Shown in pieces: positions 42,382-55,037 of a stretch of 56,624 bases of DNA. The notes under the pieces are model-generated. The model searched no databases. It was not told the DNA's origin and worked only from the letters and a program-made list of their open reading frames with translations. The position numbers and the translations under genes are program-made. The stretch comes from an uncultured Prevotellaceae bacterium (GTDB lineage: Bacteria; Bacteroidota; Bacteroidia; Bacteroidales; Bacteroidaceae). Positions within the stretch are counted from its first letter, which is position 1. Every line of letters starts with the position of its first letter. The stretch lies in assembly GCA_900316445.1 (NCBI GenBank), contig ONCZ01000053.1:1-56624 (forward strand). The letters run 5' to 3'.

Positions 42382-42431
42382 TAGATTCTCAATTATTTTC
42401 TAAAAAAAACGGGCATGAATCTGGATTGCTA

Positions 42432-42570
42432 CAAAAAGGAACTCCGCTCAAATGGCCTTGCTTGCCGGACCAACCGGGGCTATCCATCTGAAGCGGAGGT
42501 TAAAAGTGCTTCTATTTACATAAGTCGCTTGCCAGACCAACTGGGGCTCTTATCCTAATAGGTTCCTTTC
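42432..42570 (-). ncRNA. Candidate small RNA with twin GGTTGGTCCGGC motifs
   Basis: On the minus strand a -7 box TAATTTTG (42584-42577) is followed by two copies of a 22-base motif (42549-42528 and 42471-42450; AGCCCC, A/G, GTTGGTC, T/C, GGCAAGC). In both copies the hairpin pairs, and the change CCGG to CCAG is compensated by CCGG to CTGG. The second copy sits in a long stem (AACCTCCGCT with AGCGGAGTT) that ends in TTTTT at 42437-42433, like a terminator. No protein is evident. The transcript is predicted, not known. Confidence 0.5.
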
Positions 42571-42647
42571 ACGCTGCAAAATTACGACTTTCTTCTGAAC
42601 AAACAATCTGTTTCCATACTTTTTTTAATAAAAAAGCGATAAATCCT

Positions 42648-42677
42648 TTTGGTTATCGAAATCTTTTTGTACTTTTG
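42648..42677 (+). promoter_or_regulatory. Promoter upstream of the structured leader RNA
   Basis: TTTG (42648-42651), 18 bases, TACTTTTG (42670-42677). Start of transcription is expected near 42684. Confidence 0.8.
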
Positions 42678-42683
42678 CAATCA

Positions 42684-42988
42684 AGTATTGGCTAATCGTC
42701 GTGACACGTTTGAATCCTCTTTACGCAAGAGGGCGACGTAAGCGGGAGTTGCGGCTGTCTAAACGGTCACAATTCAGCGAGCCTCAGAGGAGGTGCCGAT
42801 GCGATTTTTGTTGGAATAATCATAGCGTTAGTGCTATATTCGGTAGTGTCCCTGAACCTAGCAACTTCACAGACATATACGAAACGAATAAGTGCCAACG
42901 TCTGCGCGATAGCGTAGACTGGACTTATCTTCGTATATGGGTTTTGCTAGGACCTTGGGACATTGATGAGCGCCAATCTGCGCTTTTT
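42684..42988 (+). ncRNA. Candidate ~305-nt structured RNA upstream of the helicase gene
   Basis: Nested pairings support an RNA gene. A 5' domain closes with GTGAC/GTCAC (42701-42705/42766-42770) and CGTTT/AAACG and holds CCTCTT/AAGAGG. ATAGC/GCTAT forms a small hairpin at 42822-42837. The long central arm pairs TGTCCC/GGGACA (42847-42852/42957-42962), CCTAGCAA/TTGCTAGG (42857-42864/42944-42951), ATATACGAA/TTCGTATAT (42875-42883/42930-42938) and ATAAGT.../...ACTTAT (42888/42928). A terminator ends it at 42988. The 110-codon frame across it lacks protein character. After the terminator two more hairpins (42999-43016 and 43030-43054) precede ATG 43064. No known RNA family was recognised. Confidence 0.65.
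42969..42988 (+). terminator. Terminator of the candidate RNA
   Basis: AGCGC-CAATCT-GCGCT followed by TTTT. If efficient it separates the RNA from the helicase gene; if leaky it acts as an attenuator. Confidence 0.75.
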
Positions 42989-43063
42989 CGTGTCCTGAGG
43001 TCTTATCGCATAGACCCATTTTCTCCGAGATAGTCCTTTCGCTCCTAAGACTATAGCGTAGAT

Positions 43064-46000
43064 ATGGCAGACATACCTATTTCTTCCCATTTCTTTACTA
43101 ACAGGGATGGGAACACGTTGATGAAGGAGTTTGAGGGTATCCTTGCTAACAACCCTCAAGTGAAGAACCTTGATGCTGTCGTGGGCTTTCTCCGGGCATC
43201 GGGCTATTTTTCCTTGCGGCCTTTCCTCGATGGTATCAATAAGGTTCGCATTCTGATTGGCATCGATGTTGATAAATACATTGCAAAAGCCAACCAGAAA
43301 GGCGAATTGTTCTTTGGTGCAGAGGAAGAAGTAAAAGAAGAATGCCTCAGGCTGTTAAAAGAAGACATAGAACAGTCACACTACACCAAAAAGGTGGAGG
43401 ACGGTATGCTCCAGATGGTTCAAGATCTGGTTGATGGAAAACTGGAGTTGCGTGCCCATCCTTCGAAAAAGATTCATGCCAAGCTCTATATTCTCTATCC
43501 GGATAATTACAACCGGCATTGCTTTGGTGCTGCCATTACTGGTAGTAGCAATCTGAGTGGCAACGGATTGGGTATCAGCGAAGAAAAACAATACGAATTC
43601 AATGTCAAACTTGAGCGTTACGATGATGTGCAGTTTGCCAAAGACGAGTTTGAATTGCTATGGGAAGAAGCCAAGAATGTGCCAATCAACGCAGAAGACT
43701 ATCAAACCACTCTTGATAAGACCTACCTGAAAGGTGATGTAACACCTTACGAGCTCTACATTAAGATGCTCATGGAATATTTCAGCGACCGCGTGTTGGC
43801 TATCGACCAAGAAGATCCTTTCGACATGCCTACGGGTTATACCAAATACGACTATCAAGCAGATGCTGTCGTAGAGGGTTATCAGAAATTGCTTCGCTAT
43901 GACGGTTTCTTCCTGGCAGATGTGGTCGGTCTTGGTAAGACAGTTATTGCCACAATGATAGCTAAGAAATTCCTGATTGAGAATGGCCCTGAACATACAA
44001 AGATATTGGTGGTCTATCCGCCAGCCGTCGAGCAGAACTGGAAGACCACCTTCAAGGATTTCGGACTCGAAAAGTATACTTGTTTCGTAAGTAATGGCAG
44101 TCTATCCAAAGTGCTTGATGAAAGTAACTACGACGTTTGGAATGCTGACGAATACGACTTGGTATTGGTAGATGAGGCCCACAAATTCCGTAATCACACA
44201 ACAGGAACTTTCAACCAGCTGCAGGAAATCTGTAAGATGCCTCGTTTGGAAACGGGCTATATTCCTGGCTATAAGAAAAAGGTGATGCTGATTTCTGCTA
44301 CGCCCATGAACAATACGCCTGCAGATATTTATAATCAGATACTGATGTTCCAAGACCCTCGCCATTGCACCATTGACGGCGTCCCCAATCTGACAGCCTT
44401 CTTCTCTCCTTTAGTCGTTGAATTCCGTAAGTTCCGCAAGCAGGAGAATTTCGATTTGAAACAATTCAAGAAATTGGCAGAGAGGGTTCGTGACAGAGTG
44501 ATCAAGCCTCTTACCGTCCGCAGAACGAGAACAGATATCGAGGGCATCGCCCGATATAATAAAGATGCGAACGGATTCCCGAAGGTAGATAAGCCCGTCA
44601 AAAAGGACTATGAGTTGAACGACCATTTGGCAAATCTGTTTGAAGAGGCTATGAACATCCTCGACAAGAGACTGACCTATGCCCGCTATCAAGCCATTGC
44701 CTACCTGAAACCAGATGCTGCTCCTGGCCTGTATGATAATGCAGAGGTTATCAGCCGCAGTTTGGCAGGCATTCGTAAGAACGGCCTGGTAAAGCGTCTG
44801 GAAAGTAGTTTCTATGCTTTCAGTAAATCGCTCAAGGCATTCCGTCAGGCTAATGAGAATATGATAGACATGTGGGAGAATGATAAGATATATATTGCCC
44901 CCGACTTGGATATTAATGCACTTATAGAGGCTGGCTACAGCGAGGAAGAGATTGAACAGAAGATGAACGAGAAAGCGGAGGTGAATCCCAAGAACGCCTC
45001 CTTCAAACGAGAACACTTCAATGAAGAATACATAGACAAGTTGAGAACTGATCAAGAGCTTCTGGATAATATGTGGTTGGAGTGGGAATACATTAGCGAT
45101 GATGATGATTCGAAATTTGCCAAGTTTGAAGACCTACTAAAACATGAATTGTTTAAGAAAGACAAGAATCCGGAAGGGAAACTCGTCGTGTTCTCAGAAT
45201 CTGTCGATACGGTAGAATATCTGGAACGCCGAATTAATCGTAAGGATGTGCTTGTGATTTCTTCTAAGAACAGGAGTCAGCTTTTCAAGACCATTCGTGA
45301 GAACTTTGATGCTAACTGGAAAGAGAAGAAAGATGACTATAACATCATCCTCACCACAGACGTGTTGGCTGAGGGTGTGAACTTGCATCGCTCCAATATC
45401 ATCATCAACTACGATACACCCTGGAATAGTACCAGATTGATGCAGCGTATAGGTCGTGTGAATCGTATTGGTTCTAAGGCTGGCGTCATCCATAACTATG
45501 TTTTCTATCCCTCACGACAAGGTAATCAGGAAATCAAACTGAATCAGATAGCCCTAAGTAAGATTCAGACTTTCCACACCACTTTTGGTGAAGATAATCA
45601 GATCTATTCTACAGAGGAAATTATTGATCGCGACCTCGATAAACTCTTCAAGGAGAGTATCAAACGTGAACAGGAAGACCGCAATCTTGAATTGCCGTTC
45701 TACGAGGAACTGCGAGCACTCTATCAGCAGAACCGAAAGGAATATAAGCGTATTGAAAAACTATCATTGAGAAGCCGGACTGGTCGTGCGCCACGAGAAT
45801 TGGATGGTGTCACGCTGGCTGGCGATTCATTGGTATTTCTCAAAACCAACTTCCGCAAACTATTCTATCTGGTGAACGACCAGCAGACGCGCGAATTATC
45901 TGTACTCGATGCGTTGAACTACTTCAAGGCTACACCTGAAGAAAAGGCCGTGCCCAGACTGGAGCAACATCATGAACATGTGGAAAAAGCCCTGAATGCA

Positions 46001-46387
46001 TTTAACAAAGCCAAAGAGCAGGAGATACAAGAGGAAGAATCCAACCAAAACCAACGTAGCAATCTTGGCGCTCAGGTCACAACGGCTGTCAGTTTGTTGA
46101 ATGGAATGTTGCCTCATATCGAAGATGGTGACACACGCCTGAAAATCATTCAGTTGAAAGAATTGGCTGAACGAGGCACGATTACTTATATAGCAAAACG
46201 CTTGCAACGTATTCAGAAAGACCTTCAGCGTCAGGGAGGCAGCAAGGCTAAGCTAACCTTTGAAGATGCCTTGAAGCAAGTGCTCGATATGGCCAACAAG
46301 TACAACACCTATTACAGAGAAATGCAGCATGCAGAAGAGGAGTCTGCTGCTACCATCATATTGTCAGAATCATTTCAAAATAACTAA
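43064..46387 (+). CDS. PLD-nuclease/SF2 (SNF2-like) helicase fusion
   Basis: A 1107-residue protein. The N-terminal phospholipase-D-like nuclease domain (about 1-210) shows the HxK motif H138-K140 (KIHAKLYIL) and GSSNLS (160-165). An SF2 helicase follows: DVVGLGKT (286-293), VDEAH (369-373), SATPMNNTP, and motif VI MQRIGRVNRIGSK near 793-806. The C-terminal ~250 residues are charged and helical. It is followed five bases later by a DNA methyltransferase gene, so the pair looks like a restriction-modification or DISARM-like phage-defence unit in which this protein cleaves unmodified DNA. No Shine-Dalgarno is seen; a structured leader precedes it. Confidence 0.88.
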   Translation: MADIPISSHFFTNRDGNTLMKEFEGILANNPQVKNLDAVVGFLRASGYFSLRPFLDGINKVRILIGIDVDKYIAKANQKGELFFGAEEEVKEECLRLLKEDIEQSHYTKKVEDGMLQMVQDLVDGKLELRAHPSKKIHAKLYILYPDNYNRHCFGAAITGSSNLSGNGLGISEEKQYEFNVKLERYDDVQFAKDEFELLWEEAKNVPINAEDYQTTLDKTYLKGDVTPYELYIKMLMEYFSDRVLAIDQEDPFDMPTGYTKYDYQADAVVEGYQKLLRYDGFFLADVVGLGKTVIATMIAKKFLIENGPEHTKILVVYPPAVEQNWKTTFKDFGLEKYTCFVSNGSLSKVLDESNYDVWNADEYDLVLVDEAHKFRNHTTGTFNQLQEICKMPRLETGYIPGYKKKVMLISATPMNNTPADIYNQILMFQDPRHCTIDGVPNLTAFFSPLVVEFRKFRKQENFDLKQFKKLAERVRDRVIKPLTVRRTRTDIEGIARYNKDANGFPKVDKPVKKDYELNDHLANLFEEAMNILDKRLTYARYQAIAYLKPDAAPGLYDNAEVISRSLAGIRKNGLVKRLESSFYAFSKSLKAFRQANENMIDMWENDKIYIAPDLDINALIEAGYSEEEIEQKMNEKAEVNPKNASFKREHFNEEYIDKLRTDQELLDNMWLEWEYISDDDDSKFAKFEDLLKHELFKKDKNPEGKLVVFSESVDTVEYLERRINRKDVLVISSKNRSQLFKTIRENFDANWKEKKDDYNIILTTDVLAEGVNLHRSNIIINYDTPWNSTRLMQRIGRVNRIGSKAGVIHNYVFYPSRQGNQEIKLNQIALSKIQTFHTTFGEDNQIYSTEEIIDRDLDKLFKESIKREQEDRNLELPFYEELRALYQQNRKEYKRIEKLSLRSRTGRAPRELDGVTLAGDSLVFLKTNFRKLFYLVNDQQTRELSVLDALNYFKATPEEKAVPRLEQHHEHVEKALNAFNKAKEQEIQEEESNQNQRSNLGAQVTTAVSLLNGMLPHIEDGDTRLKIIQLKELAERGTITYIAKRLQRIQKDLQRQGGSKAKLTFEDALKQVLDMANKYNTYYREMQHAEEESAATIILSESFQNN

Positions 46388-46392
46388 GCCCT

Positions 46393-49300
46393 ATGGATTA
46401 CAGACCTGTTATCGAATCAAAATACAATCGTCAGAACTGGCAAACCCTGTTACACGATATATTTGGCAGTAGGATCAAGTTCTGGAACTCGCCATCAGCC
46501 GTTTCTGCTAATAGTCAATATGCCAAACAGGCATTATGGCTTGGGACCATCACTCTAAGTGACGAGCAGACCATAAGTGTCTATGAAGTAGAACTATCTG
46601 ATAGTGTAGATATCGAGCGCAACCGCAGAGGTATCCGTGATATGCTGCTTACAACTTGGCGTAGTAACGGCAATGCAGGAGCCTTTATGTTCTGTTATCG
46701 CAAGAACGAGAGTGTGCTTCGCTTTTCGTATGTCAGCGAGGCTTGGACGTTTGCCGACGATGGAGCATATCAGAAGGAATCGACAGATGCCAAACGCTTC
46801 ACCTATCTGCTTGGTGAGGGCCATCGCAGCCGCACGGCCATTCAGCAGTTTGAGAAGCTGAAAGCCAGTAGCCAGAAGCTGAAAGACCTGACGAAAGCAT
46901 TCTCCGTAGATGCCGTCAGCGATATGTTCTTTGACGAATATAAGAAGAACTACGAGGACATCATCCAGTTCATTACGGGCAAGCGGATGGTGAAGGTAAA
47001 CAACAAGTGGGAGGAGCAAGTGAAAAACGATCCATGCGAATACATCATGCAGGAGTTTGCTGCTTTTGCGAATCCTGAAAAGGCCGTGCGTGACTATGTG
47101 AAGAAATTGATGGGCCGCCTTGTCTTCCTTCAATTCCTACAGAAGAAAGGTTGGCTTGGTGTTCCGGCAAATGCAGAATGGGGTAGTGGTGATCCTGAAT
47201 TTATCCAGAACCTTTTCGCTCAGACTGCAGACAAAGATCACTTTATCGACAATGTGTTGGAGTCGCTCTTCAACGACCTCAATAGCGAGGATGTGAGAAA
47301 ACTGCCTCAATATCGCACACCATACTTGAACGGTGGTTTGTTCGAGCGTGATGCCTCAGACGAAACAAACTTCCCTCTGCCTGCCAAGTATATGCAGCAG
47401 ATGCTTGACTTCTTCAGCAGCTACAACTTCACCATTGACGAAAACGATCCTGACGATGCAGAAGTTGGCGTTGACCCAGAGATGTTAGGGCGCATCTTCG
47501 AGAATCTGTTGGAAGACAACAAGGATAAAGGAGCCTTCTATACGCCAAAGGAAATCGTTACTTATATGTGTCGCGAAAGCCTTATAGCCTATCTACAAAC
47601 TGATGTTGAGGATGAGCCAACAAAGGAAGCCATTCGTCAGTTTGTAACCACCCGCGATGCTGCAACTCTTGGCAATATTGCAGACGATATAGACCAGCGA
47701 TTAAAGGACGTGAAAATTTGTGACCCTGCCATTGGCTCTGGCGCATTCCCCATGGGCTTGCTAAAAGAACTCTTTCTTTGCCGTACAGCCCTTGAAGGCA
47801 TCAGCCAGCATCAAGCCGCAGAAATCAAGAAGCATATCATTCAGCAAAATATCTATGGCGTTGATATCGAGCGTGGTGCCGTTGATATCGCCCGCCTCCG
47901 TTTCTGGCTATCTCTTATTGTTGATGAAGAAACACCCCAGGCATTGCCCAACCTCGACTTCAAGATTATGCAAGGCAACTCGCTTTTGGAACAGTATAAG
48001 GGTATTGACCTTTCAACGATGACAGAAAGGAAATACGATAAGAAAGAAGGGTTAAGTTGGTTCGATAACATGGTGGATGTCTATCGTGAAGAATTACGCA
48101 ATATGCTTGCTAAATATTATAATTGCACAAGCCACAACGAGAAAAATCAACTTCGCACCTCAATTATTAATAATGTAAAGAAGCAACTCAAAGAGCAGAG
48201 CATTAATGTGGACTTTGGCGACCTCGACCTCTCGGGTAATAATCAGTTCATGCTTTGGCACACTTGGTTCTATGATGTGTTCTCACAAGGTGGCTTTGAT
48301 ATTGTGATTGGTAATCCTCCCTATATCCGTGTGCAAAATCTTCCACATCATCTAATCGATTTGTATAAAAAAGTCTTTTCTACAGCTTGGAAACGTGTTG
48401 ATATTTCAACATTGTTTATAGAACAAATGATAGGTCGCATTTCCCCAAAAGGAATTTTATGTTATATAACATCAAACCAATTTGTATCAGCAGAATATGG
48501 GCGACTAATGAGAAAGTTTATAGTTAAGGAGAGGCTTCTTAATAAAATTGTAGACTTCGCTGGACTTCCTGTATTTGAAAGTGCAATTACATATGTCAGC
48601 GTGTTTTTCCTATCCCATTTCCAAACAGAGTCATTTGATTATTACAAAGTTCCTCAGTTACCATTTGTTATTCCAGGAGAATTTAAAAAGTGTAAATATG
48701 ATGATTTTACTGATGAGCCTTGGTCTTTTGTTTTTAGTAAAGATAAAGACCTTCTAAAAAAAATACAATCGTACCCTCCTCTTTCTGATATAGCATTTGC
48801 AAAAGGTGGAATTATTACAGGAAATGATGATAGCTATATTTTTGAACCCGAATCCTTTCCTGCAGAAGAAGAGGTATCTCTTGATTTAATAAGAACGGAT
48901 GATATACAACGCTATTATCTTGGATCACCAAAACTAAAGATGTTTTATCCATGTACTTATGCCAGTAATGGTGACACGGAAGTAATACCACTTGATACAA
49001 TCAAACAATTATACCCACGAGCATATAGTCACATTCAAAATAAGGAATTAGTCTTAAAATCTAGAAAAGATTCTAGAAATGTAATGGGGGATAAGAAGCA
49101 TTGGTATCAGCCAGTAAGATTTGGAACACTAAGATTGTTTAAAGGGAAAAAGATATTAGGCCCTGGTATTGTAAATCACAACAAATTTGTTCTTGATGAT
49201 GAAGGTTATGCATTTTCGTTTGGTAACATGTATGCAATAGCAACAAACAATACTAATATCGAAATAAAAGTTCTTCTTGGAATATTAAACTCTAAATTAG

Positions 49301-49566
49301 TTGAATTTTATCTTCATAAAGTCGCACCAGTTAAGCAAGGCGGTTATTTTTCCTATGGAGCAACTGTGTTAGAAAAGATTCCGTTAAGTTACCCCCAAGG
49401 CGAAATAGCGAAAAAAATATTGTATATAGTTGAAATAATCATCTCAGAGAAGAAAAAGGATAGTTCTTCTGACACAACAACTTTGGAATCTGAAATTGAC
49501 CGTCTCGTTTATCAGCTCTACGGACTGACAGAAGAAGAAATTAAAATTGTTGAAGGTTGCGAATAA
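46393..49566 (+). CDS. Eco57I/PglX-like adenine-specific DNA methyltransferase
   Basis: A 1057-residue class I MTase. SAM motif I is DPAIGSGAF (444-452) and catalytic NPPY lies at 641-644 (IVIGNPPYIRV), with an N-terminal helical region resembling type IIG/BREX PglX proteins. A C-terminal TaqI-like specificity region (about 650-1000) includes GYFSYGATVLEKIPL near 1000. No nuclease motif was noticed at the N-terminus, so cleavage would fall to the partner helicase/PLD protein. From about 48330 codon use turns clearly AT-rich, the part expected to determine target recognition, suggesting replacement of that domain. Confidence 0.9.
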   Translation: MDYRPVIESKYNRQNWQTLLHDIFGSRIKFWNSPSAVSANSQYAKQALWLGTITLSDEQTISVYEVELSDSVDIERNRRGIRDMLLTTWRSNGNAGAFMFCYRKNESVLRFSYVSEAWTFADDGAYQKESTDAKRFTYLLGEGHRSRTAIQQFEKLKASSQKLKDLTKAFSVDAVSDMFFDEYKKNYEDIIQFITGKRMVKVNNKWEEQVKNDPCEYIMQEFAAFANPEKAVRDYVKKLMGRLVFLQFLQKKGWLGVPANAEWGSGDPEFIQNLFAQTADKDHFIDNVLESLFNDLNSEDVRKLPQYRTPYLNGGLFERDASDETNFPLPAKYMQQMLDFFSSYNFTIDENDPDDAEVGVDPEMLGRIFENLLEDNKDKGAFYTPKEIVTYMCRESLIAYLQTDVEDEPTKEAIRQFVTTRDAATLGNIADDIDQRLKDVKICDPAIGSGAFPMGLLKELFLCRTALEGISQHQAAEIKKHIIQQNIYGVDIERGAVDIARLRFWLSLIVDEETPQALPNLDFKIMQGNSLLEQYKGIDLSTMTERKYDKKEGLSWFDNMVDVYREELRNMLAKYYNCTSHNEKNQLRTSIINNVKKQLKEQSINVDFGDLDLSGNNQFMLWHTWFYDVFSQGGFDIVIGNPPYIRVQNLPHHLIDLYKKVFSTAWKRVDISTLFIEQMIGRISPKGILCYITSNQFVSAEYGRLMRKFIVKERLLNKIVDFAGLPVFESAITYVSVFFLSHFQTESFDYYKVPQLPFVIPGEFKKCKYDDFTDEPWSFVFSKDKDLLKKIQSYPPLSDIAFAKGGIITGNDDSYIFEPESFPAEEEVSLDLIRTDDIQRYYLGSPKLKMFYPCTYASNGDTEVIPLDTIKQLYPRAYSHIQNKELVLKSRKDSRNVMGDKKHWYQPVRFGTLRLFKGKKILGPGIVNHNKFVLDDEGYAFSFGNMYAIATNNTNIEIKVLLGILNSKLVEFYLHKVAPVKQGGYFSYGATVLEKIPLSYPQGEIAKKILYIVEIIISEKKKDSSSDTTTLESEIDRLVYQLYGLTEEEIKIVEGCE

Positions 49567-49841: not shown

Positions 49842-50831
49842 ATGAACGATTACATCATCCACAACATCGACATAACTGTAACTCCCCAGTTATTTCATTA
49901 TGAAAATGTTGAGCCAGACAAATCCGTAGAACGCTTTCCCAATTATTATTTGGGTAGAAGCATTGGTGACAAAGGTAGTGAACTTGATTTGAAACGCATC
50001 AGACGAAATGGCGAAGAGGAACATGTACCTAACTGCGTCCTAAGAAATGAGGATGGTATAGCCTTACTCCGAATACACAACAAGGAAAATTTCACCTTTT
50101 ACGACCTGCCAGAGAATACGGGAAACGAAGTCAAGGATTGTATAGGTGTTCCACAATCAAACTATCCCTTTGGTTATGTTGTGGTCGATTATCGTGATGG
50201 CAAATGCCAGATGGCCATAGAGAAAACCTCTGCATGGGACAGTAAGACGATCACAATCAAGAATAGCCTTGAAGGTTTCTTCAATGACAAACTCTCAAAA
50301 AGCATGGGAATTGATATAAAGCTCAAAGAGAAACCAGAACCAACAACGTTTGATGAATTCGTTGACCAACGCACCATAGACCATGGAGATGTGGTTGAAT
50401 CGTTTACATTTGAGTATGTTAATTTAAAACGTAAGCCAACAGCCAGAATACCAGAATCTCTGACAGAACAGATGGATTATCATTCCAAGATTCTGGAATT
50501 CTATAATGCCATAAGTGGCGCAACAACCATGAAAATGGGATCGACTGTTGATAACGATAAACTTAAGCAACTATCAACGGTTGTTACTTATTCTACGGAT
50601 AACGCATTTGACTTGACGGTCAAATTCAGAGATTATGGTGATTATACCGTCAGTAAAGGAATAGTTGCAAAATATCCTATGAACGATGTAGTTGTCAGCA
50701 ATTTTAAGGATTTTATCACTCCTGATATTGTTACGAGCGATTTCGATTTGAGATCATGGCTGGATGAAGTATTTGAGAAGGTAAAAAAAGGAAAAGATGG
50801 CGAAGAGATACCAACAAAACCAATGGAGTAA
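49842..50831 (+). CDS. Unknown protein, first gene of a sigma-54 pair
   Basis: A 329-residue soluble protein without signal peptide or membrane helix that I do not recognise. It starts MNDYIIHNIDITVTPQLFHY and has mixed alpha/beta character, with charged helices at the C-terminus (LDEVFEKVKKGKDGEE). It overlaps the next gene by 35 bases and stands between a two-gene restriction-like system and DUF3987-like/toprim genes. A defence or effector role is inference from place only. Codon use is more AT-rich than in the housekeeping genes. Confidence 0.7.
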   Translation: MNDYIIHNIDITVTPQLFHYENVEPDKSVERFPNYYLGRSIGDKGSELDLKRIRRNGEEEHVPNCVLRNEDGIALLRIHNKENFTFYDLPENTGNEVKDCIGVPQSNYPFGYVVVDYRDGKCQMAIEKTSAWDSKTITIKNSLEGFFNDKLSKSMGIDIKLKEKPEPTTFDEFVDQRTIDHGDVVESFTFEYVNLKRKPTARIPESLTEQMDYHSKILEFYNAISGATTMKMGSTVDNDKLKQLSTVVTYSTDNAFDLTVKFRDYGDYTVSKGIVAKYPMNDVVVSNFKDFITPDIVTSDFDLRSWLDEVFEKVKKGKDGEEIPTKPME

Positions 50832-51873
50832 GGTAAAAGAGCATTTTCGCGAGCACCCTTACTACAAGTTGTGTAAGACGGTATTTGGTGAGTTCCAGAA
50901 GTTGTGTCCTACGATGGTTATGACTCCAGAACAGTTGTTCGTTGATGCTTCGTTGACATTGGATAGCATCATACATACAGGAGATAAATTGACCGAGCTA
51001 TGCCACAGTTTGTGGACAGAGAAGTACAACCAATATCGCACGCAAGACCAAATGACGGGTAGACCAGAAGATACAAAGACTGAAGTTGCCATGTTGTTTT
51101 ACATGGTGATGTATGGTGTAGCGACTGTCAATCATTCACATTATCGTGGCACTCTTCAGAGAGTACTTCATGATTGTATTTGCAAATTCTATGGCATTAA
51201 AGAATGTCTGAATATTGAGCAAAAACTTCGTGAGCCGGTTAATCAGCACACGACGGAAATGATGGCATGGATGGCAGAATATTTTGTGTCAGCACGAAGC
51301 TTGACCAAGGAAATTGAAGAGGTCCTTCATCCACAAAAGCCTAAAAAACCAAAGAAACCTACAAAAGCAGATGATAAGACTCCATACGTAATGAAATATA
51401 TCTGCAACGATGAAACAACTCGCACAAACAGGCTCCAACGTGCTATGATATTGATGCAAAACTGGGGATGGATAGTAGAACCTAAAAAAGCCGATGATTT
51501 CTACGACTTCTTCAACGGAGAACATCGGGCATGTAACTTGAAATGGATTGGAAAACCTCAAACTATTCTGACCCTTCTGATTCAAAGTCTAAATGAGTTG
51601 CCTTTCTTTAAAAAACAGACTGGAGCCAGCGAATCAGCCATTATTAAAAATCAGTTTGGACTGAAATCTGTTAATTATAATTTTGAACGAATATCTGCTG
51701 AAGATAAAAATCGTATAGCCTTGATTATTGTCGTCCTTGACCCAGATGTCGCACTTAAGGCATTGCCCACAAAAGGTCGTGGTGACGGTTTTGATTATAG
51801 CGATTCTGTTATGAATGCGGTATATAAGCAAGAACTTCATGTCATAAAAGACTTGAATAAATGGTATGAATAA
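50797..51873 (+). CDS. Unknown two-domain protein, second gene of the sigma-54 pair
   Basis: A 358-residue soluble protein that I do not recognise. An N-terminal helical part (about 1-180) with several conserved-looking aromatic and Cys residues is joined by a lysine/proline linker (QKPKKPKKPTKADDK, about 182-196) to a C-terminal helical part (about 197-358). The 35-base overlap with the upstream gene implies a common transcript and coupled translation. A terminator-like hairpin follows at 51933-51963. Confidence 0.68.
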   Translation: MAKRYQQNQWSKVKEHFREHPYYKLCKTVFGEFQKLCPTMVMTPEQLFVDASLTLDSIIHTGDKLTELCHSLWTEKYNQYRTQDQMTGRPEDTKTEVAMLFYMVMYGVATVNHSHYRGTLQRVLHDCICKFYGIKECLNIEQKLREPVNQHTTEMMAWMAEYFVSARSLTKEIEEVLHPQKPKKPKKPTKADDKTPYVMKYICNDETTRTNRLQRAMILMQNWGWIVEPKKADDFYDFFNGEHRACNLKWIGKPQTILTLLIQSLNELPFFKKQTGASESAIIKNQFGLKSVNYNFERISAEDKNRIALIIVVLDPDVALKALPTKGRGDGFDYSDSVMNAVYKQELHVIKDLNKWYE

Positions 51874-51881
51874 TAAGGTAG

Positions 51882-52030
51882 GCTGTTAGATGAACTGTTA
51901 GAAACAAGCATTTTTCTGAATATTTTTTGTAGGCCGAAATTCTGCTAAATGTAGAGTTTCGGCTTTGTTGTGATAGAAAAATTGTCTGTTAGAATTTGTT
52001 TGTTAGAAAAATCGATAATTCTTCTAACAG
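51882..52030. repeat. Scattered CTGTTAGA repeats
   Basis: CTGTTAGA or TTGTTAGA occurs four times on the plus strand and once inverted (TCTAACAG) between the unknown pair and the next gene, partly around the hairpin. Possible iteron-like or regulator sites; significance unproven. Confidence 0.5.
51933..51963 (+). terminator. Terminator-like hairpin after the unknown pair
   Basis: GCCGAAA-T-TCT/AGA-G-TTTCGGC with a 9-base loop, followed by TTTGTTG. Confidence 0.65.
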
Positions 52031-52083
52031 AATCAGGCATTTCCACCCCATTGCTGAGGGCAACAATAACTGCCCTAAGCAAA

Positions 52084-52605
52084 ATGAGAAAAAATAAGAA
52101 TTCTCGCGTGAGGTCTGAAAAACAGTACGAGCCTCGCATCGTAGGAGAAATCCTACACGACTATTTGGAGAACAGCAACGAACCTTTGGCAGTTGCTTAT
52201 CGTGGACACACAACCGAAAGTGAAGAACAAGGTTGGAACCGCAACACGCATTTGGGCGTGGATCTGAAAACTCTGCTTCGTAGCGACAGTAAGATGAAGG
52301 TAGGTAAGGACTATCAGGGAATCTTACGCCGCGACGAGATCTGTGAGGAATTCCGCTACGATGAACACTTCACGTTCGTCGAGACTGTCGCCCAAGGCGT
52401 TGAGAAGCGCAACCCGCACGTCTATGTCGGCCAGTACATCACCATCACCCGCAGGGACGACGGCACCTACCGCCCGAATTTCAGACCCGTGAAGATGGGG
52501 GCAGATTTCAGCGTCGAGAAGTATGCTGCCGGTGTCTCCAACGAACTGCTCTGGGCTCTTGAAGACCTTATAGAGAATGGATCGGTGGAGGCCGAGAGTA
52601 AGTAA
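52084..52605 (+). CDS. Unknown accessory protein preceding array C
   Basis: A 173-residue protein from MRKNKNSRVRSEKQYEPRIV onward, basic at the N-terminus (nucleic-acid binding is possible), then DYLENSNEPLAVAY and a beta-rich middle (FTFVETVAQG, VYVGQYITITRRDDGTY). The ORF is open to 51970, but upstream residues derive from the repeat-rich spacer; ATG 52084 is preferred. Codon use shifts to GC-rich halfway. I do not recognise a family. It stands directly before the inverted array and the DUF3987-like gene. Confidence 0.65.
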   Translation: MRKNKNSRVRSEKQYEPRIVGEILHDYLENSNEPLAVAYRGHTTESEEQGWNRNTHLGVDLKTLLRSDSKMKVGKDYQGILRRDEICEEFRYDEHFTFVETVAQGVEKRNPHVYVGQYITITRRDDGTYRPNFRPVKMGADFSVEKYAAGVSNELLWALEDLIENGSVEAESK

Positions 52606-52610
52606 GACTT

Positions 52611-52757
52611 GTGACAGTTACAGTTGTGACAGTTAGGTTTCTCAGACTCACCAAATCTTATAAAAGTTATATAACTTACTGATATACAGATAATTATATA
52701 TATATTTAAGGTTTTTGCGAGAAAAAGAAAGTATACTGTAACAACTGTAACTGTAAC
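52611..52757. repeat. Inverted tandem-repeat array C with AT-rich core
   Basis: Left arm 52611-52636 (GTGACAGTTA, CAGTTGTGACAGTTA) and right arm 52736-52757 (ACTGTAAC units) are inverted. Core 52667-52705 (TTATATAACT, GATATA, AGATA, TTATATATAT) matches array A at 34 of 39 positions on the opposite strand. The DUF3987-like start lies 41 bases beyond, so the array is its promoter/leader region as well. Confidence 0.87.
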
Positions 52758-52797
52758 GGGCAGGTCAGTAGTAAATTATCTAAAAAGCTGAATATCA

Positions 52798-54099
52798 ATG
52801 AAATACGACATTACAAAAACAACAGCACCTAAGATGCCGAACCTCGGAAAGGGCACAGAATGCATCAAACTCTTGCTCTCACAGGCATCAAAAGACATCC
52901 AAGAACCCCTGGTTCCGATGTTTTTCCCCTCTCTTGGCGCACATGTGAGCGGCGCAGAATTTCAGTATCCTGACAATTCCTGGAAGGAGTTATGTGGCCT
53001 GATGGCCAACTTAGTTGGCGATTCGGGCTGTAACAAGGGCCAATTGTCACCACTTGTGGAAGCTATTTGCCGTGATTTCCGTCTGCATGACAAGGCCGTA
53101 ACAAATCAACTTGTGGCGTGGCAGAGACAGTCGAATGTCAATGGCGGCAAGGACAGTACCGCCCGACCAGACGTTGCACTCTGGTTCCCCCCGGTAGATA
53201 CGACGGCAGCTGGCTTTCTTCTGAACAGCATGGCTCTGGAGCCGGAACGCCGCACGCAATACTTCAATCTGCCTGAGGTGGAGATGGCCGACGGCCTCTG
53301 CGGCGGTCATAAAAAACTGTCTCATATGATCAGGAACATCTATGATATGGCTCGCGCCGGTGCTCTCAGGGCAACGAAAGACGGTGTCACGGGAAACCCG
53401 ATTCTGAGAGCCAGCATGACGCTTTCTGCCAACCCCTACTCAGCACGTGACTTCTACAAGAACGAGCTCTTCAACGGTACTTTTGGACGCATGGTGTTCT
53501 CCTATAAGCCACGCACGAGCCGTGACGGTCGGATACCAAGGCAGGGCAAGTATGATGATGAGTTCTACCGCAAGTTGGATGAGTATCTGGCTCGTCTGGG
53601 CAACTGTAAGGGCCGCTTCATCATCCGCCCGCTGAACAAACTGGCTGACAAACTGGCCGCAGATATGGCCTCGCTGGCCGACCTGGTCGACGACGACATC
53701 CTCTGGGATCTCAGCAAAAGAGCCTTGCACTCAGCTTGGAAGGCAGGCTGCATACTTTGGATTCTCAATAATCAGGTCTTTACGCGGTCTATGGCTGATC
53801 TGGTAGAATGGCTTTGTTATCGTGACATCTGGAGCAAAATGCAGATATTTTCTGATATGTTAAACTCTAAGGACGCCAACTTAGTGAGCGAGGCTCAGCG
53901 CCGTGGTCCGAAGAACATGCTCGACGGCCTGCCCGAAACGTTCAACGAGGCGCAGCTGAAGGCTCTGCGCGTCAAACTCGGTAAGAGTGAAGAGGGTGCC
54001 AATGCACAGTTACGCCAATGGGTGTTCCGCAAGTTCATCACGTACTCGAACCAGACGGGACTTTACACCAAGACGGAGGAGTACCTGAAGAATGCATAA
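52798..54099 (+). CDS. DUF3987-like protein of an accessory replication module
   Basis: A 433-residue protein resembling the DUF3987 family (primase/helicase-associated proteins of Bacteroidales mobile regions). The N-terminal third contains a degenerate P-loop-like GDSGCNKGQL (about 74-83), followed by a RecA-like pattern (PDVALWFPPVDTTAAGFLLN) and helical C-terminal half. The usual VirE/BT4734 N-terminal domain is absent. It is followed 23 bases later by a CHC2/toprim primase gene, supporting a role in DNA replication of a mobile element. A truncated, IS-split copy lies at 17412-18976. Confidence 0.65.
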   Translation: MKYDITKTTAPKMPNLGKGTECIKLLLSQASKDIQEPLVPMFFPSLGAHVSGAEFQYPDNSWKELCGLMANLVGDSGCNKGQLSPLVEAICRDFRLHDKAVTNQLVAWQRQSNVNGGKDSTARPDVALWFPPVDTTAAGFLLNSMALEPERRTQYFNLPEVEMADGLCGGHKKLSHMIRNIYDMARAGALRATKDGVTGNPILRASMTLSANPYSARDFYKNELFNGTFGRMVFSYKPRTSRDGRIPRQGKYDDEFYRKLDEYLARLGNCKGRFIIRPLNKLADKLAADMASLADLVDDDILWDLSKRALHSAWKAGCILWILNNQVFTRSMADLVEWLCYRDIWSKMQIFSDMLNSKDANLVSEAQRRGPKNMLDGLPETFNEAQLKALRVKLGKSEEGANAQLRQWVFRKFITYSNQTGLYTKTEEYLKNA

Positions 54100-54122: not shown

Positions 54123-55037
54123 ATGGATAAGTTTGAACTTCAAAAGCTTCGCGATCTCCCGATAGAGGGGGTCGCGGAGCGGCTCGGACTGAGTGTGAGC
54201 AGGCATAAGTGTTTGTGTCCGTTTCACGATGATCATCACGCGAGTTTGTCGTTTAGTGTTAAGCGCAACAGCTACCGTTGCTTTGTGTGCGGGGTCAGCG
54301 GGGGGACGATAGATTTGGTGATGAGATATATGAATAAGGACTTCAAGGAGGCCTGCAGGTGGCTGGCAGATGAGGCGGGGGTAGTGATGAACAATCCGTT
54401 GTTCAGACCACCCCAACCCCTCCTAACTCAGGAGGGGAAAGAAGTTACCTTTGAGGCGGCGAGGTATGAACGGTTCTTCGAGCGGCCGTGGCTGAACGAG
54501 GCGGCAAGACGGTTTCTGTTCGAGGAGCGCAGGATTGATGCAAGAGTCGTGCGCTGGTGTAGGCTCACGTCGTGGACCGATAGGGGAGGGGTCGCCTGGC
54601 TGCAGATACCTTATTATAACAAGGAGGGCCGTCTGGTGGGCATCCAGAACCGTAACCTGATAAAGGGCGCGACACCTCGTTTCCGTTTCCCCAGCGGGTC
54701 GCAATGCGGTATCTACAATCTGCCCGTGCTGAACAGGCTCCGTCCCGGCGACGAGCTTTATATCACCGAGGGCTGTTCCGACTGCTGGGCGATGCTCTCA
54801 GCCGGTCATAAGGCCATCGCGATCCCGTCAGCCACGTTGCTAACGAAGAAGGACATAGAACAATTGTCAACTGTCAACTCTCAATTGTCAACAGAGTTCC
54901 ACATGTATCCAGATCGCGACGAGCCAGGCGAACGACTCTTCATGCAGTTGCAGAAAGTTTTTCCCAATCTGGAGCATCATCAACTGCCGCCGGGTTGCAA
55001 GGATTTCAGCGATTATTATCTATCAATTACGAAATGA
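54123..55037 (+). CDS. CHC2 zinc-finger/toprim primase-like protein
   Basis: A 304-residue DnaG-like protein. The zinc finger has C32-H35 (CPFH) and C53-C56 (CFVC); the toprim domain has LYITEGCSDCWAML and the acidic DRDEPGERLF near 260. It would synthesise primers for the DUF3987-like partner. Two DNA repeats are translated within it: residues about 93-106 (RPPQPLLTQEG, palindromic repeat) and about 246-257 (QLSTVNSQLST, tandem TTGTCAAC repeat) just before the DxD motif. Its leader (54100-54122) consists of ATAATGC tandem repeats. Confidence 0.88.
   Translation: MDKFELQKLRDLPIEGVAERLGLSVSRHKCLCPFHDDHHASLSFSVKRNSYRCFVCGVSGGTIDLVMRYMNKDFKEACRWLADEAGVVMNNPLFRPPQPLLTQEGKEVTFEAARYERFFERPWLNEAARRFLFEERRIDARVVRWCRLTSWTDRGGVAWLQIPYYNKEGRLVGIQNRNLIKGATPRFRFPSGSQCGIYNLPVLNRLRPGDELYITEGCSDCWAMLSAGHKAIAIPSATLLTKKDIEQLSTVNSQLSTEFHMYPDRDEPGERLFMQLQKVFPNLEHHQLPPGCKDFSDYYLSITK
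54401..54437. repeat. 37-bp palindromic repeat inside the toprim gene
   Basis: Minus-strand reading is CCCCTCCTGAGTTAGGAGGG, G, TTGGGGTGGTCTGAAC: the P1 half-element seen at four other places. Here it is read in a different frame from the copy in lon (RPPQPLLTQEG versus [11 protein letters not shown]). Confidence 0.9.
54860..54892. repeat. TTGTCAAC tandem repeats inside the toprim gene
   Basis: Four TTGTCAA/CTGTCAA-type units in frame, encoding QLSTVNSQLST. Similar tandem repeats otherwise form leaders of genes in this window. Confidence 0.75.

Follow-up and report, generated by a model that had tools for sequence, protein, structure and literature searches.

The leader and its conserved core

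The DNA analyzed here, hereafter the window, is a stretch of 56,624 nucleotides (nt) from an uncultured Prevotellaceae bacterium (contig ONCZ01000053.1). On its forward strand, an element at 42648-43063 directly precedes an operon of two genes, the first encoding a PLD-like and SNF2 helicase of 1107 amino acids (aa; 43064-46387, + strand) and the second an Eco57I/type IIG-like methyltransferase of 1057 aa (46393-49566, + strand). The element comprises a promoter and a leader, which starts just after the promoter and ends at the ATG of the helicase gene, and the leader, whose sequence allows two alternative folds that exclude each other, one of them resembling a transcription terminator, is probably an undescribed RNA on/off switch. 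An upstream TTTG is part of the Bacteroidota promoter pattern, and the promoter predicted at 42648-42677 (+ strand) indeed matched this pattern with TTTG at 42648-42651 and TACTTTTG at 42670-42677.

The stretch 42684-43063 folded at -145.2 kcal/mol, as compared with -109.9 ± 5.8 kcal/mol for its shuffles (z -6.1, none of 100 as low), and this stability bore out the structured RNA put forward in the original prediction, an annotation made from the letters of the window. All of the stems listed there were present, namely TGTCCC/GGGACA, CCTAGCAA/TTGCTAGG, ATATACGAA/TTCGTATAT, ATAAGT/ACTTAT and CCTCTT/AAGAGG, the first four being backed by changes on both sides in relatives. In the 5' domain of the fold (42684-42810, + strand), GTATTGGC at 42685-42692 is predicted to pair with GCCGATGC at 42795-42802 and to enclose hairpins; this domain was full or partial in same-genus members, with partner changes seen by eye, and was not recognized by eye in phylum-level loci. 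The last part of the leader (42989-43063, + strand), which follows a run of U residues (U-run) at 42984-42988, was seen from sequence and alignment to hold hairpins at 42999-43016 and 43030-43054 and to extend up to the start codon.

Searching 299 same-genus genomes by blastn with 42640-43063 gave matches in 66 of them, mainly in two blocks, one of the promoter and RNA start and the other of the 3' two thirds. Forty loci (L031-L070) were picked from these by hand, most being the best-scoring ones covering the 3' part and some covering the promoter end only, while many promoter-end matches were left out; together with the window, all 41 had at least one TAnnTTTG within 520 nt upstream of the script-called start of the open reading frame (ORF) and a long ORF downstream. 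A covariance model of the conserved core, R1 (42823-42995, + strand; 174 positions), was then built from 34 of the 41 sequences after seven had been excluded by hand, five for being among the most divergent and two as near-duplicates. R1 matched at least 209 of 299 same-genus genomes (E up to 1e-3), at least 129 of 393 order-level genomes (E up to 0.01), spread over 79 of 206 genera, and at least 33 of 395 phylum-level genomes (E up to 1e-3), all of these counts being lower bounds because filtering was strict and the number of scored candidates was capped. A search of this kind, proposed with the original prediction as its check, thus returned many homologues with compensatory changes at the genus, order and phylum levels. 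Multiple copies per genome were common; in the window's own genome, six places were found at E up to 1, the last three at E 0.003 to 0.01, and we judge all six to be genuine members by eye from the recurrence of the same strands, which was accompanied by a co-directional gene. In addition, a core-pattern scan of named genomes gave at least 80 loci, Prevotella, Segatella, Xylanibacter and Porphyromonas being among the hosts; R1 matched 55 of the 80 listed, and none of the 19 from records titled as organisms outside Bacteroidota. Members were present in records of Prevotella sp. tf2-5, Xylanibacter brevis ATCC 19188 and Segatella copri Indica.

A phage or plasmid element was considered and rejected, since blastn with 42640-43063 gave no match in phage and plasmid collections and 44 viral stretches carrying the exact short core pattern gave no R1 match at E up to 0.1, a test that viral relatives lacking the pattern would escape. 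A known family was likewise rejected: Rfam 15, whose families include T-box and epsC, returned nothing for the whole window at gathering score, a sole worm snoRNA match on the other strand of 42600-43100 at E up to 5, taken for chance, and nothing for 20 related loci at E up to 1. The Flavo-1, Bacteroidales-1, Bacteroides-1 and Bacteroid-trp RNAs, listed with Rfam numbers in passages of PMC2864571, are likewise structured RNAs of Bacteroidota; unlike them, the leader gave no match to these families in 42600-43100 or in the 20 related loci at the same respective E-values.

Conservation of the promoter and of reading frames was assessed in 141 loci, consisting of the 41 of the blastn set, 30 further same-genus, 49 order-level and 19 phylum-level loci and two more from the window's own genome. 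TAnnTTTG, the Bacteroidota promoter word named in a passage of PMC9723704, preceded the core by no more than 220 nt in 118 of the 141 loci versus 11% of base-shuffled upstream stretches, and in 77 of 100 when the 41 loci found with a query containing the promoter were set aside. The frame homologous to the ORF at 42701-43033 (110 aa) was broken within the core in 35 of the 41 same-genus sequences, the window included, in agreement with the predicted non-coding nature of the leader. Any sense frame stayed open across the core in 16 of the 141 loci (11%) versus 9% of shuffles, and with these frame breaks and this shuffle-level rate a protein-coding reading was ruled out.

The core fold proved to be a junction at which P1, the hairpin Hx, the arm P3-P4-P5 and the hairpin Hy join with short linkers, the two small hairpins kissing by eight pairs between their loops. 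It starts with the hairpin ATAGCGTTAGTGCTAT (42822-42837, + strand; helix 1), in which 65.3% of the alignment cells were paired and four of five pairs showed changes on both sides, helices 1 and 8 being the weakest. The 5' strand of P1 (42846-42852, + strand) pairs with 42957-42963 as helix 2 (98.6% of cells paired, six of six modelled pairs changed on both sides). The segment at 42875-42906 (+ strand) holds the 5' strand of P3 (42875-42883) and strand U, made up of the 5' strands of P4 and P5 (42887-42906), and the 3' strand of P3, TTCGTATAT, lies at 42930-42938 (+ strand); helices 4 and 5 were paired in 94.2% and 93.1% of cells, respectively, with changes on both sides in nine of nine pairs.

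In the R1 alignment of 100 loci (the window, L031-L070, L120 and L130-L187), 44 of the 48 modelled pairs had changes on both sides, double-changed cells numbered 1087 versus 317 ± 18.5 in shuffles, and 88.4% of cells were paired versus 66% in shuffles and 33-49% with slid partners. Since this alignment was fitted to R1 and hence favours modelled pairs, pairings outside the model, such as Hx and Hy, carry more weight. Hx (42853-42869, + strand), closed by TGAA at 42853-42856 and TTCA at 42866-42869, was paired in 86.7% of cells versus 73.5% in shuffles, with 66 double-changed cells versus 28, and Hy (42939-42955, + strand), closed by GGGT at 42939-42942 and ACCT at 42952-42955, was paired in 87.8%, with 24 changes from U-A to C-G at one pair. 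The loops of these hairpins hold CCTAGCAA (42857-42864) and TTGCTAGG (42944-42951), which were paired with each other in 95.3% of cells, and this helix, P2, was therefore read as a kissing of loops; the pairing proposed in the original prediction is real, though better read in this way than as one of the consecutive helices of an arm. Across 99 distinct sequences, seven of its eight pairs contained no G-U at all although the sequence changes freely, which suggests a demand for exact Watson-Crick geometry. The 3' strand of P1 also matched bases beyond the U-run, 74.8% of cells being paired with a degree of co-variation, but this pairing was too inconsistent to be claimed. Judged from all these comparisons, the leader is a real, strongly conserved structured RNA belonging to a Bacteroidota-wide family.

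Alternative partners of one strand

Strand S (42907-42929, + strand) is composed of the P5 loop and the 3' strands of P5 and P4, and it can be partnered either by U or by strand D (42965-42984), which runs into the U-run (together 42965-42988, + strand), harbours a local hairpin and forms with S an alternative terminator stem. In the distant, phylum-level members, too, the 3' side of P5 and P4 found its complement in the bases that precede the U-run. In 121 loci, cognate duplexes of S-D, like Hx and Hy a pairing outside R1, averaged -20.1 kcal/mol versus -16.1 kcal/mol with permuted partners (z -16.5), and cognate U-S duplexes -16.2 versus -12.9 kcal/mol (z -15.0). Among 40 loci below 60% identity, the corresponding values were -20.5 versus -15.3 kcal/mol (standard deviation 0.44, z -11.8, none of 10,000 permutations as low) for S-D and -16.5 versus -12.3 kcal/mol (z -10.0) for U-S, and the controls in these divergent loci, U with D (z -0.3) and S with reversed D (z -0.6), showed no co-variation. 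In all but two of 41 loci the S-D stem comprised 14 to 22 pairs, the exceptions being L317 with 10 and L159 with 7; in L168 it ran through 20 unbroken pairs, and L331 has a strong stem as well. Furthermore, the best 8-nt window of D held at least six T in 101 of 121 loci versus 21% of shuffled D, and at least five in 119 of 121 versus 60%.

The conservation of both U-S and S-D implies that S has two mutually exclusive partners, one of which places a stem right before the U-run. A strand with two exclusive partners, one of them giving a terminator stem, is the build of attenuators and of many riboswitches. The leader runs from a promoter to a gene on the same strand, has a stem followed by a U-run, and its terminator excludes the conserved upstream fold; the attenuation suggested for it in the original prediction is supported by its own promoter, its terminator stem and the exclusive U-S and S-D pairings. 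As for the rho-independent terminator placed at 42969-42988, the local hairpin is present in the window (-7.7 kcal/mol), whereas the conserved stem before the U-run is S-D. The local hairpin was accordingly rejected as the conserved terminator, its mean over the 121 loci being -3.2 kcal/mol as compared with -20.1 kcal/mol for S-D. GATAAG/CTTATC taken alone was paired in 90.3% of cells with just 14 double-changed cells, and makes sense only within the whole S-D stem.

The recurring ATAGCGT-type sequence, also pointed out in the original prediction, has copies in the hairpin at 42822-42837, within S and immediately upstream of the ATG; pairing with two partners accounts for the copy in S, but not for the others. 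The copy before the ATG, ATAGCGTAGAT at 43050-43063, repeats part of S and is kept in many same-genus members; it is able to pair with D in the window, and by eye not exactly so in L032 and L033. Weak co-variation of S and D with this part of the leader was also observed.

Genes behind the leader

In 124 of the 141 loci, a co-directional ORF of at least 75 aa starting with ATG lay within 250 nt of the core end, the median distance from core end to ATG being 68 nt, and a divergent ORF lay on the other side of the core in 28. Co-directional versus divergent ORFs numbered 41 versus 3 in the 41 loci of the blastn set, 28 versus 6 in the 30 further same-genus loci, 40 versus 8 in the 49 order-level loci, and 1 versus 0 in the two extra loci of the window's own genome.

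Within the genus, 65 of 71 loci stood before restriction-modification or related defence genes (39 of 41 blastn loci, 7 of 10 among L178-L187 and 19 of 20 among L332-L351), as assigned by family scans of representatives and blastp clusters rather than a scan of every protein, and in a sample biased toward leaders close to the window's or listed at the top of the R1 ranking. The six exceptions were L037, which precedes a TPR protein and a Schlafen-type helicase, L056, L182, L183, L187 and L336. The kinds of system were unrelated, including helicase/methylase pairs, type I (L034), type III (L042, L049) and type IIG/MmeI (L062, L069, L178) systems, an AlwI-like enzyme with two D12 methylases (L055), and an EcoRI-type methylase (L065, L344). 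Among the 49 order-level loci, all from other genera, at least 12 preceded restriction genes; other genes there encoded BspA-type repeat proteins, PKD/Por-tail secreted proteins, CsgG, PAP2, a mechanosensitive channel and some proteins without a Pfam match, those of L120, L153, L164 and L167 being left unclassified. Phylum-level loci preceded genes for TonB receptors (assigned by Pfam in L318 and L324 and by eye in L325 and L328), for a response regulator (L329) and, by eye, for small proteins with signal-like N-termini. No restriction gene was seen in ten proteins scanned from the 19 phylum-level loci, nor by eye in the rest, nine of the loci lying outside the protein family scan. The idea that the family is tied to defence genes throughout was rejected, given that not all of the 49 order-level loci and none of those seen at the phylum level fit it. 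A single one of the 19 phylum-level loci, L321, was seen to have a reverse transcriptase, a retron-type enzyme 444 nt behind the leader member; as to a retron noncoding RNA (msr-msd), which has a reverse transcriptase next to it, the genes after the window's leader encode a helicase and a methylase instead.

Leaders and the genes behind them were also found to differ in their degree of identity. The leader of L031 is 90% identical to that of the window over 289 bases, with helicases about 24% identical, and in nine operons (L032, L033, L035, L038, L041, L044, L048, L051 and L052) the helicases are 92-94% identical to that of the window, with leaders 76-86% identical in the matched parts. This mismatch indicates that leaders moved between operons, or operons under leaders.

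In the surroundings of the operon, 49842-54099 and 54123-55037, behind the methylase, hold four ORFs of 211-433 aa that hit neither Pfam (E up to 1e-3) nor PADLOC models, and after them the gene for a DnaG-type zinc-finger/Toprim protein of 304 aa, which PADLOC associates with reverse-transcriptase defence models. On the other side, just upstream of the leader, a long fold at 42425-42584 (z -3.3 for the - strand and -2.3 for the + strand) contains TTGCCRGACCAACYGGGGCT twice on the - strand, a compensatory change setting the two stems apart. With TAnnTTTG at 42577-42584 on the - strand and a U-run at 42433-42437, this element looks like a small RNA read leftwards. Partial matches to 42405-42600 were found in 38 of 200 same-genus genomes, many covering the promoter end only, and Rfam returned nothing for the element beyond two chance-level matches.

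Interpretation and implications

Considering these results together, we propose, with a probability of roughly three in four, that the helicase/methylase mRNA has this stretch as its 5' leader, and that the leader belongs to a family of two-state attenuator RNAs acting in cis throughout Bacteroidota, an attenuator mechanism being likely. In the proposed state A, P1, the kissing Hx and Hy, and the arm P3-P4-P5 would form, with U holding S; D would then be without a strong partner in most members, and RNA polymerase would continue into the operon. In state B, the long S-D stem would form directly before the U-run, and transcription would end after about 305 nt. A signal (a ligand, protein or RNA) shared by all copies within a cell, stabilizing or breaking state A, would set the balance between the two states. 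Because the best fold contained no S-D pair in 40 of 41 loci, read-through was taken as the resting state, and we think that termination would need a loosened upstream fold; this is the weakest part of the proposal, and the order of synthesis and ligands can reverse the resting state.

Several observations weigh against the attenuator. In terms of nested energies, with the kissing pairing treated as a nested stem, the best fold without S-D lay below the S-D fold by a median of 13.6 kcal/mol over the 41 loci, and the gap in the window was 17.3 kcal/mol from the core to the U-run and 18.7 kcal/mol over 42684-42988 (L167 preferred the S-D fold, and L327 and L171 were near ties); the non-S-D fold being more stable, state B would need help or kinetics. 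The local hairpin of the window could also stop transcription in either state. In two of the 40 divergent loci, L159 and L317, the strands delimited by the script form hardly any S-D duplex, an average of 15% of D strands taken from other loci bind a given S more strongly than its cognate D does, and the permutation tests handle kinship by the redundancy (identity) cut only. S co-varied with the leader after the U-run (z -6.8) in a comparison meant as a control, as did D (z -4.5), which may reflect a part of this region in folding or the relatedness of the loci. For Hx alone and for Hx, Hy and P2 jointly, two of five measures (double-change pairs and pair types) did not exceed shuffles, as the stems are short and partly invariant. 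The promoter word was absent from 23 of the 141 loci and a co-directional ORF from 17, and placement at the phylum level was less clear, with 14 co-directional versus 11 divergent ORFs in 19 loci.

The same promoter and U-run, together with the several copies per genome, would also suit a stand-alone small RNA that ends at the U-run and acts in trans, its proximity to a gene being incidental or accompanied by some read-through. We consider this unlikely, because the next gene mostly keeps its orientation and its distance (within 250 nt in 124 of 141 loci; median 68 nt), one strand of the stop stem is hidden by the main fold, which a plain small RNA would not need, and cognate strands on average fit each other better than those of other copies, pointing to pairing in cis. 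Attenuation by a leader peptide, in which translation of a short ORF chooses the fold, would share the attenuation architecture, and a short frame after the 5' domain is visible by eye in some members; its start and frame are, however, not kept between members as judged by eye, and no frame stays open over the core across members; we give this version a very low probability. About as poorly placed, and if anything slightly more so, is a DNA-level site for recombination or cassette exchange, with hairpins acting in DNA and restriction genes being swapped: the re-assortment evident from the L031 leader and its dissimilar helicase speaks for it, whereas same-genus conservation spans promoter to start codon and exclusive pairings, a U-run and kissing loops are features of RNA. 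Least credible of all is a working part of the restriction system (a guide, antitoxin or template RNA), which the original prediction had entertained as a functional component on account of the location directly before the operon, and to which the L321 copy before a reverse transcriptase might also point; it was dropped, as the same leader stands before type I, II, IIG and III systems, before helicase/methylase pairs and before many other genes, among which no common protein able to make use of the RNA was seen.

The proposed cis-acting attenuator can be compared with described RNAs. A kissing-loop junction resembles aptamers in general layout only. Like the crcB and pfl riboswitch classes, for which passages of PMC2864571 describe overlapping terminators, the leader is a 5' leader with a compact junction and loop-loop pairing, a strand shared with an overlapping terminator stem and several gene contexts; unlike them, it has no Rfam 15 match, and its contexts are restriction operons and surface or secreted genes instead of one metabolic pathway. 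Unnamed structured leaders and RNAs, partly of Bacteroidota, are also on record in the 64 structured 5' regions of Flavobacterium psychrophilum (PMC9723704) and the 3161 candidate structured RNAs of human microbiomes (PMC8040213). Compared by description only, this fold, the two-state pairing and the restriction link are absent from the passages of those two papers, and members of the leader family may be among their candidates. No description of the leader was found in the open PubMed Central literature searched, passages of PMC6429828 included, and none of five Bacteroidota or restriction terms occurred in PMC11109978. The RNA family is real and, as far as the open literature was searched, undescribed.

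Restriction-modification genes are regulated by C proteins or antisense RNA, which, like the leader as proposed here, act on restriction-modification operons; these regulators are specific to single systems, whereas the leader is common to unrelated ones. On this proposal, the window's genus has adopted the family as a common leader of restriction-modification operons, whose expression could be switched jointly. A broader version, to which we give less than even odds, is a phylum-wide riboswitch-like class whose kissing-hairpin junction would read one common cellular signal and set the degree of read-through, serving in Prevotella as a general on/off control of restriction that would switch unrelated type I, II, IIG and III systems of one cell together.

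If these proposals hold, a structured regulatory RNA family that is common in Bacteroidota, often multi-copy and matched by no Rfam 15 model would be at hand, and a single kind of RNA leader would, in the window's genus, coordinate restriction systems of unrelated origin. Since leaders of this kind stand elsewhere before genes for outer-membrane receptors, secreted proteins and others, the shared signal would deserve attention in its own right. The ways in which cells tune or delay restriction would become directly testable, which would bear on phage resistance and on the genetics of gut Prevotella.

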